This document shows, one piece after another, positions 23,191 through 29,798 of a stretch of DNA of 64,000 nt. The notes under the pieces were generated by a model. The model was not told the DNA's origin and did no database searches. It saw only the letters and a list, made by a program, of their open reading frames with translations. The stretch is from Thermoanaerobacter kivui (lineage in GTDB: Bacteria; Bacillota; Thermoanaerobacteria; Thermoanaerobacterales; Thermoanaerobacteraceae), in contig NZ_CP009170.1 in the NCBI RefSeq assembly GCF_000763575.1, positions 707,501-771,500 on the forward strand, given 5' to 3'. Within the stretch, counting starts at the first letter, position 1; the number at the start of each line of letters is the position of its first letter. Position numbers and translations under genes: made by a program.

Positions 23191-24054
23191 ATGGAGTCTC
23201 TATACCATAGGGGGGTGTTAATTATAAATACCAAGGATAAATTGCAAAAGTTAAAAGACTATATACATAATTTGGATAACGCATTGATTGCTTTTTCTGG
23301 AGGGGTAGATAGTACTTTTTTGGCTAAAATAAGTTACGATGTCTTAGGAGATAGGGTATTGGCTGTTACTGCTACTTTTCCAATGTATTCTAAAAGCGAA
23401 TTAAAAGAAGCTATAGACATTGCTAAAAAAATAGGAATTCCCCACTTGGTTGTGGAGTTTAATGATATTCTTGAAATAGAAGAATTTAAAAAAAATCCTT
23501 TAAATAGGTGCTATATATGTAAATCCAATTTATTTTCGAAATTTAAAGCTATTGCTAAAGATAGAGGCCTAAATTACGTTTTGGAAGGGACAAATGCTGA
23601 TGATGTGTCTGATTTTAGGCCGGGAAGAAGGGTTTTAAAAGAATTGGGAATTTTGAGCCCTTTGCTGGAATGTGGTATAAAGAAAGAAGAAATAAGAATT
23701 TTGTCAAAAGAGATGAATCTTCCAACTTGGGATAAGCCTTCTTACGCTTGTCTTGCTTCCAGAATTCCTTATGGTGAAGAGATAACTTATGATAAGCTTT
23801 CTATGATAGAAAAAGCAGAAGAGGGTTTGAGAGATTTAGGTTTTTCAGGATTTAGAGTGAGATACCATGGAGATGTTGCAAGGATTGAACTTCCAAAAGA
23901 GCAGATGGATGCAATATTTGAAAAGAGTGTAAGGGAGGAAATTGTAAAGAGGCTTAAAAATGCTGGGTTTAAGTATGTAGCACTGGATTTAGAAGGATAC
24001 AGAACTGGTAGCTTAAATGAACCGCATGTGAGGGTGGTAAAAGATGTACAGTGA
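23191..24054 (+). CDS. larE: LarE, ATP-dependent sacrificial sulfur transferase
   Basis: LarE adds sulfur to the nickel-pincer nucleotide precursor in several clostridial and lactobacillar cofactor pathways. The protein has the PP-loop SGGVDSTFLAK near residue 37, NPLNRCYICKSNLF with cysteines near 105, and CLASRIPYGEEIT near 190. The start is doubtful: ATG 23191 has no ribosome site, while GGGGGGTG at 23210-23217 stands six bases before ATA 23224 and three before ATT 23221, so the real protein may begin with INTKDKLQKLK. It overlaps larB by 11 bases. No larA (the lactate racemase apoenzyme) is in the window. Confidence 0.92.
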   Translation: MESLYHRGVLIINTKDKLQKLKDYIHNLDNALIAFSGGVDSTFLAKISYDVLGDRVLAVTATFPMYSKSELKEAIDIAKKIGIPHLVVEFNDILEIEEFKKNPLNRCYICKSNLFSKFKAIAKDRGLNYVLEGTNADDVSDFRPGRRVLKELGILSPLLECGIKKEEIRILSKEMNLPTWDKPSYACLASRIPYGEEITYDKLSMIEKAEEGLRDLGFSGFRVRYHGDVARIELPKEQMDAIFEKSVREEIVKRLKNAGFKYVALDLEGYRTGSLNEPHVRVVKDVQ

Positions 24055-24805
24055 GAAAATATTACAAGTTTTAACACAGTTTAAACAAAATAAAATAACA
24101 ACAGAAGAAGCATTGGAGGCTTTAAGAAAGCTCCCTTATGAGGATTTGGGTTTTGCAAAAATCGATTATCACAGGGAGATAAGAAAGGGATTTCCTGAAG
24201 TAATTTTTTGTGGGGGAAAGACTCCACAGCAAGTCAAAGAAATCGCTTTTAATATGTACAAAAATGGGAGCGATGTTTTAGGGACAAGAGCTTCCCACGA
24301 GCATTTTGAGGCGGTAAGAGAACTTTTAGAAAAAGCAGTGTATTATGAGACAGCGAGAATTATTTCTATAAGAAATACTCCTCCTAGAAAGACAAAGGGG
24401 ATAATTGGAGTGGTGGCTGCCGGCACTTCTGATTTAGCGGTTGCTGAAGAAGCTGCAGTTACTGCAGAGCTCATGGGCAATACCGTAAAAAGGTTTTACG
24501 ATGTAGGAGTTGCAGGTTTGCACAGGCTTTTGGATAAGATTGAGGAGATTAGGGAATGCCGCGTGATAATCGCAATTGCTGGCATGGAAGGGGCACTTCC
24601 TACTGTGTTAGGAGGTTTAGTGGGCTCCCCCATAATTGCTGTACCTACCAGCGTGGGATACGGTGCAAATTTTCACGGTTTGTCCGCTCTTTTGGCTATG
24701 CTTAACTCCTGCGCCAGTGGAGTGAGTGTTGTAAATATTGACAACGGTTTTGGAGCGGCGTATTCTGCCAGTTTGATAAATAAAATAGGGGAGGAAGGAA
24801 AGTGA
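24044..24805 (+). CDS. larB: LarB, nicotinate adenine dinucleotide carboxylase/hydrolase
   Basis: LarB carboxylates NaAD and releases AMP as the first step of nickel-pincer cofactor synthesis. The 253-residue protein has an N-terminal helical region and then the PurE-like domain: GVVAAGTSDLAVAEEAAVTAE near 125, IAIAGMEGALPTVLGGLV near 177, and PTSVGYGANFHGLSALL near 203. It starts inside larE and ends with ATGA-type overlap into larC, so larE-larB-larC form one operon. Confidence 0.93.
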   Translation: MYSEKILQVLTQFKQNKITTEEALEALRKLPYEDLGFAKIDYHREIRKGFPEVIFCGGKTPQQVKEIAFNMYKNGSDVLGTRASHEHFEAVRELLEKAVYYETARIISIRNTPPRKTKGIIGVVAAGTSDLAVAEEAAVTAELMGNTVKRFYDVGVAGLHRLLDKIEEIRECRVIIAIAGMEGALPTVLGGLVGSPIIAVPTSVGYGANFHGLSALLAMLNSCASGVSVVNIDNGFGAAYSASLINKIGEEGK

Positions 24806-25979
24806 AAGTAGTGTATTTTGATTGTTTTGCAGGAATTTCTGGCGATATGACTATTGCTTCACTATTATCTCATGTTGATGTTGGGGAATTTAAAGATAGA
24901 TTAAAAGGAGTAGCTTTAACTAATTTTGATGTAGAAATAGGAGAAACACAGAAAAAAAGCATTAGTGCCAAGACATTTAAAGTGATATACGATGAGACCC
25001 ATCACTATCATCACAGACATATGAAAGACATAAGAGAGATTATTGAAAAGAGCGACTTGGAAGATGAAGTAAAGAGGATGAGCATTGAAATGTTTGAAAA
25101 TCTGGCAAAAGCAGAGGCAAAAGTGCATGGAAAATCTCCCGAAGAAGTGCATTTTCATGAGGTTGGAGTGGTAGACTCTATAGTGGATATAATAGGTACG
25201 GCGATACTTATAAACATGATAAAACCGGAGAGAATTATTTCTTCGCCGATTCCGATAAGTTCGGGATTTGTAATGAGCCAGCACGGTCTTATGCCTGTAC
25301 CTGCTCCAGCGACAGCAGAGCTTTTAAAGGGAATACCTGTGTATCAAAGCGATGTAAAAGGTGAAATTGTGACTCCAACAGGTGCTGCTATTGTAAAAAC
25401 TTTGGCAAATGAATTTGGCGGTATGCCCGATATGACGATAAATTCTGTTGGATATGGTGCTGGTACAAAGGATTTAGAGATACCAAATGTTTTGAGGACG
25501 TATGTAGGAGAGGAAGAAGTAAAAAAAAACCTGAGACATTGATGGTTTTGGAGACAAATATAGATGACATGAATCCAGAGTTTTATCAGTATTTGTTTGA
25601 ACTGCTTTTTAAAAATGGAGCATTAGACGTGTTTTTGACTCCTATTATAATGAAAAAGCAAAGGCCGGGAACACTCCTGACTGTAATTTGTGAAAATGAA
25701 AATGCAGATAAATTAAAAGAGATAATATTTAGAGAAACTTCTACTTTTGGCATAAGATACTACGAAGCTTTAAGGCACAAGCTTGATAGAGATTTTTCAG
25801 TTGTGGATACTCCTTACGGGAAGATAAGAGTGAAAAAAGGCTATTTAAATGAAAAACTTATTAAGGCGTATCCTGAGTATGAGGATGTTAAAGCTATTGC
25901 TGAAAAGACTGGAATTTCAATTAGCGATATTTATAGAAATGTGATAAGACATATTGATTTGCTATTTTTTAAAGATTGA
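24802..25979 (+). CDS. larC: LarC, nickel insertion protein, encoded in two frames
   Basis: LarC inserts nickel into the pincer cofactor at the expense of CTP. The first frame (24802-25542, 246 codons) has YFDCFAGISGDMTIASLL, the HHYHHRHMKD histidine-rich metal region, EVHFHEVGVVDSIVDIIG and SPIPISSGFV. The second frame (25539-25979) gives NIDDMNPEFYQYLFELLF and the C-terminal domain. At 25521-25529 there is a run of nine A; a -1 shift there turns VKKN-stop into a continuous KKPETLMVLETN. Lactobacillus LarC is likewise made through a programmed frameshift (family knowledge), so this may be functional rather than a mutation. Confidence 0.88.
25521..25529 (+). other. A9 slippery run at the larC1/larC2 junction
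   Basis: Nine A residues read as GTA AAA AAA AAC in the first frame. Slipping back one base gives AAA CCT GAG ACA, which continues without stop into the LarC C-terminal domain. The first frame stops 13 bases later at 25540-25542. Confidence 0.75.
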
Positions 25980-25999
25980 AAGCGGGGTTAACCCGCTTT
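25979..25999. terminator. Bidirectional terminator between larC and the histidine kinase gene
   Basis: AAAGCGGG (25979-25986) and CCCGCTTT (25992-25999) pair around a five-base loop. It includes the end of both convergent genes. Confidence 0.85.
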
Positions 26000-27337
26000 T
26001 AATGTGAAATAAAAAGTGGTGCCTACTCCTTCTTGACTTTCTATTCCATATTTGCTGCCGTGCAATGTCAATATTTCTTTTACTATTGCAAGGCCAAGGC
26101 CTGTTCCTGATTTGTTTCCTTTGTAATATCTGTCAAATATGTGTTCCAAATCTTTTTGAGGGATGCCGCATCCTGTATCTGATATTTTAATTAAAACATT
26201 TTTATCCTGTGGTATTGCCTCTATTGAAAGAGTTCCTTTTTTTGTCATGCTCGCTATAGCGTTGCTTATTATATTTATAATGGCTCGCTTTATCATTTCT
26301 CTATCTGCCATTACTTTGAGTTTGAGATTGTTCACTTTTACATTGATATTTTTTTCCAAAATTTGAATTTCAAATATGTCTAAAATCTCAGAAATCAGTT
26401 TTTCTAAATCTATATTTTCTTCTTTTATCTCTACCATTCCTGACTGAAGTTTAGAAAGTTCTAATACATCGTCTACTAATTTAGACATTCTTTCTGTCTC
26501 TTTGATCATCGTATTTAAGTATTTTTCTCGCTTTTCTTTGTCATCTCCATAGTAGTCCAAAAGCATTTCAGAATATCCCCGTATAAGGCCAAGAGGTGTT
26601 TTTAAGTCATGGCTTATGTTTGCAATCAAATCTTTTCTGAATTTATCTGTAATAGACAGCTGCTTTACCATTGTGTTCATAGATTTTGCAAGGTCTCCTA
26701 ATTCATCTTCTTCTTTGTAATTTATTTTGACATCTAAATTTCCAGAAGCGATTTGGTGAGCAGCGTTTTTTAGTATTTGTATGGGTCGAGTAAATTTTTT
26801 TGACATATAGACGGATATAGATAATATGGCAATTAGTGTGATGACAAAAATCCACCAAAAAACTTGCTTAAAAAGATTGACAGAATCGTTTATAGCGGCG
26901 ATAGGAATGCTCATTATTAAAGTAGCGGGTTTTCCGTTATATAAAAAAGGTCTTATGATTGAAAGGTATTCTATGTGCAAAAAAGGGTGTTCATATTTTA
27001 CCACTTTTACGCTGTCGCTGGGGCGCAAAAGTGCTTCAGGGATTCCGAAACCTCTGCCGTATCCTCTATTTCCAGCTATTATTATGTTGTTTTCAGAAAT
27101 GGCAATGACTCGAGCATTTGACTTGTCAATGAGTTCACTCATTAGTCTTTCGTCATTATTGTTTATTGCTTCAACGATTTTTTCACTGTAACTTTTAAGC
27201 TGGTTTATTTTGTAATAAGAGTATATCTTATTAATAAAAACTACCTGTGTCAACCAAAACAGTGATAATATGATGCCTCCAATCAAAAGATAAGAGATAA
27301 AAAGTTTCTTTTGTATTCCCTTCAATTTATTCACCAT
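25988..27337 (-). CDS. Sensor histidine kinase
   Basis: A 449-residue membrane kinase. It has a first membrane segment at about 13-32, an extracytoplasmic sensor domain of about 130 residues without recognised fold, a second membrane segment near 163-182, HAMP to about 235, the H-box SHDLKTPLGLIRGYSEM near 246, the N-box NIISNAIASM, DTGCGIPQKD and GTGLGLAIVK. It would autophosphorylate and pass phosphate to the response regulator encoded just upstream; the two genes overlap by 11 bases. The signal is unknown. Divergent neighbours encode secreted proteins, hinting at an envelope-related stimulus. Confidence 0.94.
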   Translation of the reverse strand: MVNKLKGIQKKLFISYLLIGGIILSLFWLTQVVFINKIYSYYKINQLKSYSEKIVEAINNNDERLMSELIDKSNARVIAISENNIIIAGNRGYGRGFGIPEALLRPSDSVKVVKYEHPFLHIEYLSIIRPFLYNGKPATLIMSIPIAAINDSVNLFKQVFWWIFVITLIAILSISVYMSKKFTRPIQILKNAAHQIASGNLDVKINYKEEDELGDLAKSMNTMVKQLSITDKFRKDLIANISHDLKTPLGLIRGYSEMLLDYYGDDKEKREKYLNTMIKETERMSKLVDDVLELSKLQSGMVEIKEENIDLEKLISEILDIFEIQILEKNINVKVNNLKLKVMADREMIKRAIINIISNAIASMTKKGTLSIEAIPQDKNVLIKISDTGCGIPQKDLEHIFDRYYKGNKSGTGLGLAIVKEILTLHGSKYGIESQEGVGTTFYFTLKAG

Positions 27338-28004
27338 CCAATTTATAACCTATCCCCCATACTGTTTTTATGAGTTTACGCTTTTCTCCTAATTTTTCTC
27401 TCAACTGTTTTATATGGGTATCAACTGTTCTTAAATCTCCATAAAAATCATATCCCCATACTTCATTAAGGCACTTTTCGCGGGATACAACTTTTCTTTT
27501 ATTATCTATTAAGAGTTTTAAAAGGTCAAATTCTTTTGGCGTAAGGTCAATTTTTTCTCCATCAACCGTGACTTCTCTAGAACTTACATTTATAGAAATT
27601 CCTTCATATTCTGTTTTCCCATCTTCTTCTGAAGCTCCATAAGTTCTTGACAAAATTGCTTTAACTCGAGCAACTACTTCTTTAGGGCTAAAGGGTTTTA
27701 CGACGTAGTCGTCTGCTCCTAATTCAAATCCTAAAAGTTTATCATATTCTTCTCCTCTTGCTGTTATCATCATTACGGGCACTTTTGACTTTTCTCTAAT
27801 TGTTTTTAAAAGGCTCCACCCACTTATATCTGGAAGCATTATGTCTAAAAGAATTATGTCTATATCTTTATGATGATTATTAAAATATTCAAGCCCTATT
27901 TTGCCATTTTCAGCTATCAGTACTTCGTATCCATTATTTTCTAAATAAGTTTTTAAAATATCTCTCATTCCTTCTTCGTCTTCAATTACTAAAACTTTTT
28001 GCAT
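27327..28004 (-). CDS. OmpR/PhoB-type response regulator
   Basis: The 225-residue protein has a receiver domain with DEE near 9-11, the phosphoacceptor in IILLDIMLPDISG near 53, the conserved threonine in MMITARG and lysine in YVVKPFSP, then a winged helix with DLTPKEFDLLKLLI and RTVDTHIKQLREKLG. It is the partner of the kinase that follows in the same operon. Its likely DNA targets are the TTCACAC-type direct repeats found upstream of both divergent secreted-protein genes (inference). Confidence 0.95.
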   Translation of the reverse strand: MQKVLVIEDEEGMRDILKTYLENNGYEVLIAENGKIGLEYFNNHHKDIDIILLDIMLPDISGWSLLKTIREKSKVPVMMITARGEEYDKLLGFELGADDYVVKPFSPKEVVARVKAILSRTYGASEEDGKTEYEGISINVSSREVTVDGEKIDLTPKEFDLLKLLIDNKRKVVSREKCLNEVWGYDFYGDLRTVDTHIKQLREKLGEKRKLIKTVWGIGYKLDGE

Positions 28005-28069
28005 AAAAAACCACCTCCCATCTCTAGTTTAATTATTTTTTAATCAGTTTACAATATTTAAAATTAAAC

Positions 28070-28124
28070 TTCACACTTTTCTCACAAATTATATAAAATT
28101 ACTTCAAACTATTTGGGTATCATA
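28070..28124 (+). promoter_or_regulatory. Shared activator-type promoter, copy 1
   Basis: TTCACAC (28070-28076) and CTCACAAAT (28081-28089) are direct repeats 11 bases apart, as in OmpR/PhoB boxes. TCAAACTA follows at 28104-28111 and TATCAT at 28119-28124. Copy 2 at 29161 has the same elements in the same order, with TCAAACTA exactly 34 bases after the first repeat in both. Confidence 0.68.
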
Positions 28125-28163
28125 AAGAATGAAAAGGAAAAATTTAAAAGGAGGTATCCATAT

Positions 28164-29050
28164 ATGAAGAGAAACAAATGGTTAATAGTTTTAGCAGTTG
28201 TATTGGCTTTGGCAATTCCTTTGACAGTTTTTGCAGCAAATACTGATTCACCACTGACAAACAGCATAAAAGGTTTTTTTGGAATTGACACATCAAAGCT
28301 TACACCAGAGCAAGAGCAAATAATTACAGATTACAACAAAAAATAGCCGACCTTGAAAAAGAGTTTATAAACAAACTCTTATCAGAAGGGCTTATAACTC
28401 AACAACAAGCAGATAATATAATTAAAAACATTGATAGCAAAGTTACGAAAGCAAATCAAGACAATGTTCCCTTCTTTATTGGTGGTGTAAGAGGATTTGA
28501 CAAAGGATTTTTTGGAATAGGCCGAATTGATACTTCAAAGCTCACAGAACAGCAAAAAGCAGCTTTAACAGAAATATACAAACAAATGGCAGCACTACAA
28601 AAGAATGTAGTAAATAAGTTGACATCAGAAGGATTATTGACTCAAGATCAAGCAAACAAAATCACAAGCAAAATAGATAATATTGTGGCTAATATAGATA
28701 AAAATGGATTTAGCAGTTTTAAAGGCCTATTTGAAGGAAAAGATGGATTAGGGTTTATCTTAAGAGAAGTTGATCCTTCTAAGCTTACAGAACAGCAAAA
28801 AACAGAGCTGATGAATTATTTTAAACAAATGGCGCAGTTACAAAAACAATTAGTTGATAAATTTGTAAGCTTTGGAGTTATTACTCAGGACCAAGGTAAT
28901 ACGATTAAAAATAGAATTGATACAATGGTGAAAAATATGGAACAAAACGGATTGCCTCAAGGATTTTTCAAACATTTTGAAGGAAGAAGAGGAGATTTTA
29001 AAGGTAAATGGCAAAATGAAAATTGGCAAACCAATACTGCTCCTCAATGA
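28164..29050 (+). pseudogene. Secreted DUF2680 protein, one-base frameshift
   Basis: ATG 28164 follows GGAGGTATCCATAT. The N-terminus is a signal peptide (MKRNKWLIVLAVVLALAIP, cleavage likely after VFA). Frame 1 stops at 28346, while the rest continues in another frame to 29050. The whole encodes three repeats of a DUF2680 unit (DTSKLTxEQ, xLQKxxxxKLxSEGLxTQxQAxxI) of about 95 residues each. Restoring one T near 28331 gives a continuous reading (ITD-LQQKIADLEKEF). A real single-base deletion or an error are both possible. It is divergent from the two-component operon and shares a promoter type with the next gene. Confidence 0.78.
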
Positions 29051-29160
29051 TATAGTAACCCTCTCTAATTGAATTTTTTGAATAAAAAGAGATGGTTAAA
29101 TGCCATCTCTTTTCTATTTTTTTTGCATAGTAGGAACCCTCATATTACTCTAAAAAAATG

Positions 29161-29214
29161 TTCACACATCCTTCACAAATCCAATATAGTTATCTCAAAC
29201 TAAAGGGTTATTAT
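29161..29214 (+). promoter_or_regulatory. Shared activator-type promoter, copy 2
   Basis: TTCACAC (29161-29167) and TTCACAAAT (29172-29180) lie 11 bases apart, TCAAACTA at 29195-29202 and TATTAT at 29209-29214. The order and spacing match the promoter at 28070. Confidence 0.68.
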
Positions 29215-29258: not shown

Positions 29259-29798
29259 ATGAATCTCAAAAAGGTAGTAGCAGTAGTACTTACAGGAGGT
29301 ATGCTTTTAAGTGGAATAGCTGCTTATGCAGCCACAACTGGCAATACAACTGGTTCTTCAACGCCACGTCAATATTCTACGACAGCACCAAGATATGGAA
29401 TGAGTAGAAATGCAGATTTTCTTGCAAAACTGACTGGCAAGACGACAGATGAAATTTTAAGTGAACTACAAGCAGGGAAGACATTAGTCCAAATAGCAGA
29501 AGAGAATGGCATAACACTTGACAATCTGAAAAAAGCTTTAATTGAGCAAAAAGAAGGGGTTATAGACCAATTAGTCAAAGATGGGAAAATAACTCAGGAT
29601 AGAGCTGACACAATCAAAAAAGCCATTGAAGACAGAATAAATTCCTGGGATGGAACATGTCAATATGGTAAAGGTTCAGGTGCTGGCTTAGGTCTTGGAT
29701 TTGGAAAAACAGGATTAGGAGCAGGTTTTGGTGCTAAAGGAGCACATAAAGGAGTAGGTTATAGGGGAGGAAACTTTGGACCAACTGTTCAGCAGTAG
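29259..29798 (+). CDS. Secreted helical protein with glycine-rich tail
   Basis: A 179-residue protein with a signal peptide (LKKVVAVVLTGGMLLSGIAA, cleavage near AYA). The middle contains LTGKTTDEILSELQAGKTL and EENGITLDNLKKALIEQKEG, a repeat pattern seen in secreted clostridial proteins of unknown function, followed by DGKITQDRADTIKKAIEDRI, which resembles the DUF2680 unit of the upstream gene. The last 40 residues are rich in glycine. The common promoter architecture with 28164 suggests control by the adjacent two-component system. GGAGTG precedes the ATG. Confidence 0.78.
   Translation: MNLKKVVAVVLTGGMLLSGIAAYAATTGNTTGSSTPRQYSTTAPRYGMSRNADFLAKLTGKTTDEILSELQAGKTLVQIAEENGITLDNLKKALIEQKEGVIDQLVKDGKITQDRADTIKKAIEDRINSWDGTCQYGKGSGAGLGLGFGKTGLGAGFGAKGAHKGVGYRGGNFGPTVQQ

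Follow-up and report, generated by a model that had tools for sequence, protein, structure and literature searches.

A conserved TTCACA box array accompanies an OmpR/PhoB-type two-component system and secreted DUF2680 proteins in Thermoanaerobacter kivui and its relatives

Introduction

The closest described counterparts of the locus analyzed here are CpxRA-CpxP of Escherichia coli, CssRS-HtrA of Bacillus subtilis and the PhoP/PhoB phosphate systems. In E. coli, the regulator-kinase operon is divergent from the gene of a secreted helical partner across a gap of 149 bp in K-12, and a direct-repeat regulator box with a period of 10 bp, of the TTTAC type on the strand of the partner, lies upstream of the partner gene. 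CssRS is an OmpR-type envelope system of the Bacillota that serves in secretion stress, and the CssR box of B. subtilis is TTTTCACA-like; a box sequence was not found in the accessible parts of the CssR literature. To our knowledge, CpxP/Spy-like partners of two-component systems have not been described in Clostridia and their relatives, and the literature searched gave none. The available portion of one publication describes CssRS as inducing HtrA proteases, one of which adjoins it (PMC12826053). The PHO boxes of PhoP/PhoB are described, in the part of the source that was available, as head-to-tail 11-nt direct repeat units with up to four units per promoter (PMC7866108).

The window analyzed in this study is a stretch of 64,000 nucleotides of the T. 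kivui genome (contig NZ_CP009170.1, positions 707,501 to 771,500), and all coordinates below are positions within it. It holds a two-component system and two genes for secreted DUF2680 proteins, D1 and D2, which the initial annotation had proposed to be tied together by a common promoter design.

Results

Regulator, kinase and secreted proteins

The sensor histidine kinase gene (25988-27337, minus strand; HAMP, HisKA and HATPase_c by domain profiles) encodes two membrane segments with about 120 residues outside, as judged by eye. The neighboring regulator gene (27327-28004, minus strand) encodes a receiver domain (PF00072, 101 bits) and a Trans_reg_C winged helix (PF00486, 100.8 bits), which places its product in the OmpR/PhoB family. 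D1 and D2 are on the plus strand, so that the regulator is divergent from the secreted-protein genes, as initially annotated. This architecture resembles CpxRA-CpxP, with a gap of 159 bp here and a direct-repeat box likewise upstream of the partner, but the box period is 11 bp instead of 10, the phylum is another, and the curated CpxR and CpxA cut-offs, which belong to enterobacterial models, were missed at 174.8 of 341 and 135.5 of 486 bits, respectively. The two-component system is adjoined by genes that we take to be larE-, larB- and larC-like (23191-25979). The larC-like gene is made up of two overlapping ORFs (24802-25542 and 25539-25979), a layout that presumably resembles larC frameshifting.

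D1 is found in two parts on the plus strand: a first part with a signal-peptide-like start and the beginning of a DUF2680 repeat, ending at a frameshift stop (28164-28346), and a remainder in the shifted frame with three DUF2680 domains (28334-29050). A terminator-like hairpin on the same strand (29085-29113) separates it from D2 (29259-29798, plus strand), whose secreted product has a single DUF2680 domain and a tail rich in Gly. Both N-terminal sequences appeared signal-peptide-like by eye, the DUF2680 (PF10925) matches of both proteins scored above the gathering threshold, and the whole genome contained no DUF2680 genes other than these two. The frameshift of D1 is located at a run of six A residues (28334-28346) where the matching stretch of the congeners is one base longer; D1 was open in all eight congeners and interrupted in the T. 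kivui genome, for which a sequencing or assembly error, a pseudogene and a slippage site are each possible explanations.

The AlphaFold model of a single-domain relative was a helical hairpin (helices at residues 27-53 and 59-78; residues 31-70 had block means of 84 to 92), and D1 was modeled less confidently, with a mean pLDDT of 69.8, as three helical hairpins. A Foldseek search with the D1 model returned no Spy/CpxP or other match at an E-value of 0.001. The best VIA-align match was a LemA protein with a Z-score of 7.1, a value that on the tool's own scale is common among helical bundles; neither a Spy nor a CpxP chain was among the matches listed, and the best E-value of a PDB sequence search was only 0.18. 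The DUF2680 partner shares with CpxP a short LTxxQ-like motif. Membership in the Spy/CpxP family is nevertheless not supported, as the LTXXQ domain scored 18.1 bits against a cut-off of 24.3 and hhalign gave 20% over 16 columns. Of the 101 genomes searched, namely that of T. kivui and 100 relatives, 54 had DUF2680 matches. No regulon or function for DUF2680 was found in the literature searched, and the family is unmentioned in a publication on a CO-grown relative.

Box arrays in the two promoters

The direct repeat TTCACAC-N4-YTCACAAAT reported at both genes in the initial annotation was recovered with zero mismatches at 28070-28089 and 29161-29180. In front of D1, box 1 (TTCACAC, 28070-28076) and box 2 (CTCACAAAT, 28081-28089) are followed by a degenerate box 3 position at +22 (28092-28099) and by box 4 (TTCAAACTA, 28103-28111) at +33, and a further TTTACA box at -22 (28048-28053) is present in all nine congeneric genomes. 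In front of D2, box 1 (TTCACAC, 29161-29167), box 2 (TTCACAAAT, 29172-29180) and box 4 at +33 (CTCAAACTA, 29194-29202) are preceded at -22 by CTCATAT (29139-29145), which is TTCACA in two of the nine congeneric genomes (L063 and L064). All of these elements are on the plus strand. The element TCAAACTA, described as lying 34 bases after the first repeat, indeed starts at 28104 and 29195; read as YTCAAAC, the block begins at +33 and is therefore a box within the same 11-bp register (0, +11, +33). The 11-base period noted previously extends to a four-box array. The -10-like hexamers, also noted previously, are TATCAT (28118-28123) and TATTAT (29209-29214), both at +48 on the plus strand and conforming to TATYAT. 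By eye, both promoters lacked a -35 hexamer at a suitable spacing from this -10, which would be expected of an activator-dependent promoter.

A genome search for the paired repeat, which had been suggested as a check, found exact TTCACA-N5-YTCACA only twice in 2,397,824 bp, at these two promoters. Within the 64-kb window alone, TTCACAC-N4-YTCACAAAT with three mismatches allowed gave 3 matches against 1.94 expected, which was not significant. The longer pattern YTCACAN5YTCACAN16YTCAN11TATNAT, searched in the genome with up to three mismatches, gave four places, namely both arrays with zero mismatches and two others with three, where the reversed control pattern gave two. The number of three-mismatch places was thus at the control level, and the surroundings of the one inspected (L178) were not informative. 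Within the genus, hslV- and topA-like genes repeatedly have a three-mismatch place between them.

Conservation in the genus and nearby genera

The regulator, the kinase, D1 and D2 were all present in the eight congener loci fetched. Both arrays were recognizable among the congeners, with the boxes kept at both genes in nine congeneric genomes. The one exception was L062, in which promoter 1 has lost box 4; in L063, the corresponding box has the letters of box 1 (TCACAC). Two congeners, L066 (genome G007) and L068 (G009), have the kinase gene divided between two frames, and D2 is split in L066; either the system is subject to repeated breakage of its parts or these assemblies contain homopolymer errors.

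In the sister genus, the DUF2680 profile was without a match in eight of nine genomes, and the orthologous pair was reached through the kinase. In all eight loci read, the regulator (70-74% identical), the kinase (51-54%) and a divergent D2 homologue (46-49%) were found, and a paired box with 0 or 1 mismatch to YTCACA-N5-YTCACA was located between the regulator and the D2 homologue, 64-69 bp from the regulator start. A -10-like hexamer was present at +48 in the sequences counted by eye. In two genomes from another family of the order, the regulator (62-64%) and the kinase (47-48%) were kept and a D2 homologue was not found next to the regulator, but the paired box was still located 50-51 bp from the regulator, so that the box seems to go with the regulator. 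The three-block pattern also had matches with two mismatches in the sister genus, of which the one read (L059) was upstream of a galU-like gene, where a TTCACA-N5-TTCACA pair is conserved.

The array across the phylum

Outside the genus, 40 DUF2680 loci were collected from 24 genomes, in 39 of which our own profile identified 41 DUF2680 ORFs; upstream regions of the other ORFs of the same loci (n = 511) served as the control. The TTCACA-N5-TTCACA form, which was fixed after 21 loci had already been viewed with YTCACA-N5-YTCACA, was found within 300 bp upstream with up to one mismatch for 16 of the 41 DUF2680 ORFs, a set that contains near-duplicate genomes (G040 and G086), versus 3 of the 511 controls (Fisher P = 3e-17). 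With up to two mismatches, the counts were 22/41 and 6/511 (Fisher P = 6e-23), and the antisense strand gave none (0/41). The remaining 19 DUF2680 ORFs had no paired box within two mismatches, some of them through operons or wrong start calls; start codons were chosen by a script and some look wrong (e.g. L114).

We then took these 41 ORFs together with those of nine named loci, retained only the 26 distinct promoters with up to two mismatches, dropped all others and aligned the 26 on boxes 1 and 2. C, A and A were found at +24, +25 and +27 in 17, 21 and 21 of the 26 promoters and at +35, +36 and +38 in 17, 21 and 22 of them. These columns, which were unused for selection, indicate four boxes 11 bp apart. 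The cleanest array was that of L137: TTCACAAATCC TTCACATCTAC CTCAAACTCTC CTCAAAACTTC GGGTTATACT. A -10-like hexamer was located at exactly +48 in 18 of the 26 promoters, the next best offset being found in 4.

It is very improbable that the repeats belong to ordinary sigma-A promoters in which TTCACA serves as the -35 element (TTCACA-18-TAAAAT and TTCACA-18-TATAGT), alike by the common descent of D1 and D2. A promoter scanner did score both at 10/12, but congeners L063, L064, L067 and L068 do not retain the -10 that this reading requires, a -10 at +24 is rare across the phylum (4/26 versus 18/26 at +48), and a -35 leaves boxes 2 to 4 unexplained. As a plain -35, TTCACA was rejected because it is not conserved as such.

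Other genes under the same array

The full grammar was found at 46 places in 23 genomes versus 3 for the reversed control (sign test P = 3e-11). Among the 30 places that were read for downstream genes, 11 precede DUF2680 genes and two precede HtrA-type proteases (Trypsin_2 with PDZ). The others include two SHOCT, one SLH, one HlyD-like and one ApbE protein as well as small secreted proteins, and several places were without a clear gene. Taken together with the HtrA arrays of T. kivui itself described below, this set of targets may point to envelope protein quality control. The small regulon expected from the initial annotation stands for the T. kivui genome at full stringency but not elsewhere, where the grammar also precedes these and other envelope-type genes.

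Among the individual places, L239 (G029:C1:2635501-2635554, minus strand), from another order of the class to which T. kivui belongs, has an array ending in TTCACACTAAAGGGTTATTAT that is almost identical to promoter 2 and precedes a SHOCT-domain protein. The arrays of L216 and L224 precede small secreted proteins that share an FxExxWxFC-like segment and Met/Gly-rich stretches and are possibly another partner family.

Like CssRS, the system described here is of the OmpR type and from the Bacillota, and HtrA genes are under the same array in relatives; unlike CssRS, it has no HtrA at the T. kivui locus and its main targets appear to be DUF2680 proteins. The HtrA genes of T. kivui are elsewhere, one of them behind another regulator-kinase pair (L180; locus L246) with two 11-bp arrays of the TTTACAC/TTCATAA type, whose -10 is 15 bp past the last box. 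This HtrA and its pair are possibly a CssRS-HtrA-like operon.

Linkage of the regulator to DUF2680 genes

A relative of the window regulator was found within 2.5 kb in 14 of the 40 DUF2680 loci versus 2.15 expected, an upper bound with every receiver-domain match counted; the 14 include L135, whose DUF2680 domain (29.7 bits) was missed by our own profile and without which the count is 13 of 39. In 8 of the 24 genomes, a DUF2680 gene was no more than 2.5 kb from the best match of the genome to the window regulator; 0.09 such cases were expected, and a million simulations of this adjacency never exceeded 3.

A tree of 53 regulators placed that of the window in a clade of 22 rows (support 98/86) together with many DUF2680-linked regulators and best matches from genomes that have DUF2680; the seven paralogues of T. 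kivui itself were all outside this clade. DUF2680-linked regulators were also spread over several subclades of the tree, pointing to a set of related systems rather than a single orthologue. This spread, together with the similar grammar of the HtrA promoter arrays in T. kivui, would agree with a paralogous regulator such as the HtrA-linked L180 being the main binder, with the neighboring system not being the main controller. We consider this unlikely given the tight synteny of the window regulator with DUF2680 genes and the box kept beside the regulator where the D2 homologue was not found.

The arrays could also be read as PHO boxes, with the DUF2680 genes in a phosphate regulon under PhoP. 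The geometry is the same, as PHO boxes are 11-nt head-to-tail repeats in the accessible part of their description (PMC7866108), and G074 has a PstS-like gene preceded by a TTAACA version of the array with identical -10 spacing, which suggests that PhoP follows this grammar with a different letter. That letter, however, separates the two: box position 3 is C in 24 of the 26 first boxes of the DUF2680 arrays and A in the PstS-linked array. Moreover, the pst-phoU cluster of T. kivui contains a regulator-kinase pair of its own, outside the clade of the window regulator, and the curated PhoB and PnpS cut-offs were missed (216/296 and 224/400 bits). The recognition helix reads THIK or THVK in most clade members and VHIR in the pst-linked regulator of T. 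kivui; at a guess, this helix difference decides between TTCACA and TTAACA. A phosphate regulon is thus a highly unlikely reading of the arrays, and assignment of the two-component system to PhoPR was rejected based on the lack of pst/phoU linkage, the missed cut-offs and the different recognition helix.

Discussion

The array, its conservation, the spacing of its -10 hexamer and its statistical link to DUF2680 genes and to this regulator type are established. Conservation in the genus, the eight of eight sister-genus loci and the phylum-wide statistics for both box and linkage support the initial proposal that a shared promoter design ties the OmpR/PhoB-type system to two secreted proteins. 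In sequence terms, the arrays also fit the spacing of about 10-11 bp of tandem direct repeats in the OmpR/PhoB family.

We regard it as probable that the locus is an autoregulated PhoB/OmpR-type two-component envelope-stress switch that activates -35-less DUF2680 promoters through the box array. The membrane kinase (25988-27337) would phosphorylate the regulator (27327-28004), which would bind TTCACA-type boxes head to tail in an 11-bp register at 0, +11, weakly +22 and +33, with an extra box at -22. With 15 bp between the last box and a -10 that lacks a -35, the bound regulator would recruit RNA polymerase to the promoters of D1 and D2, and the divergent layout, which places array 1 in the upstream region of the regulator itself, would allow autoregulation. 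The site of action of the DUF2680 proteins would then be outside the membrane, and a CpxP/Spy-like role as small helical chaperones or as partners of the sensor would be the most likely one. In our best reading, the system may work like CpxRA-CpxP or CssRS-HtrA, judging by the likenesses described above, as a member of neither.

More tentatively, and with considerable doubt, DUF2680 might be the Bacillota counterpart of CpxP/Spy, comprising secreted helical-hairpin holdases and feedback partners of widespread two-component systems, which together with HtrA would form a phylum-wide envelope proteostasis regulon driven by a four-box TTCACA array on -35-less promoters, with THIK versus VHIR setting TTCACA versus TTAACA.

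A promoter code that can be read and is linked to a regulator offers a direct way of finding the inducing signal and the partners of DUF2680, a family without known function that is present in 54 of 101 genomes, and points to an envelope-stress response in Clostridia and their relatives. The occurrence of the same repeats in front of relatives of these genes in many related bacteria likewise points to an undescribed surface-stress response.
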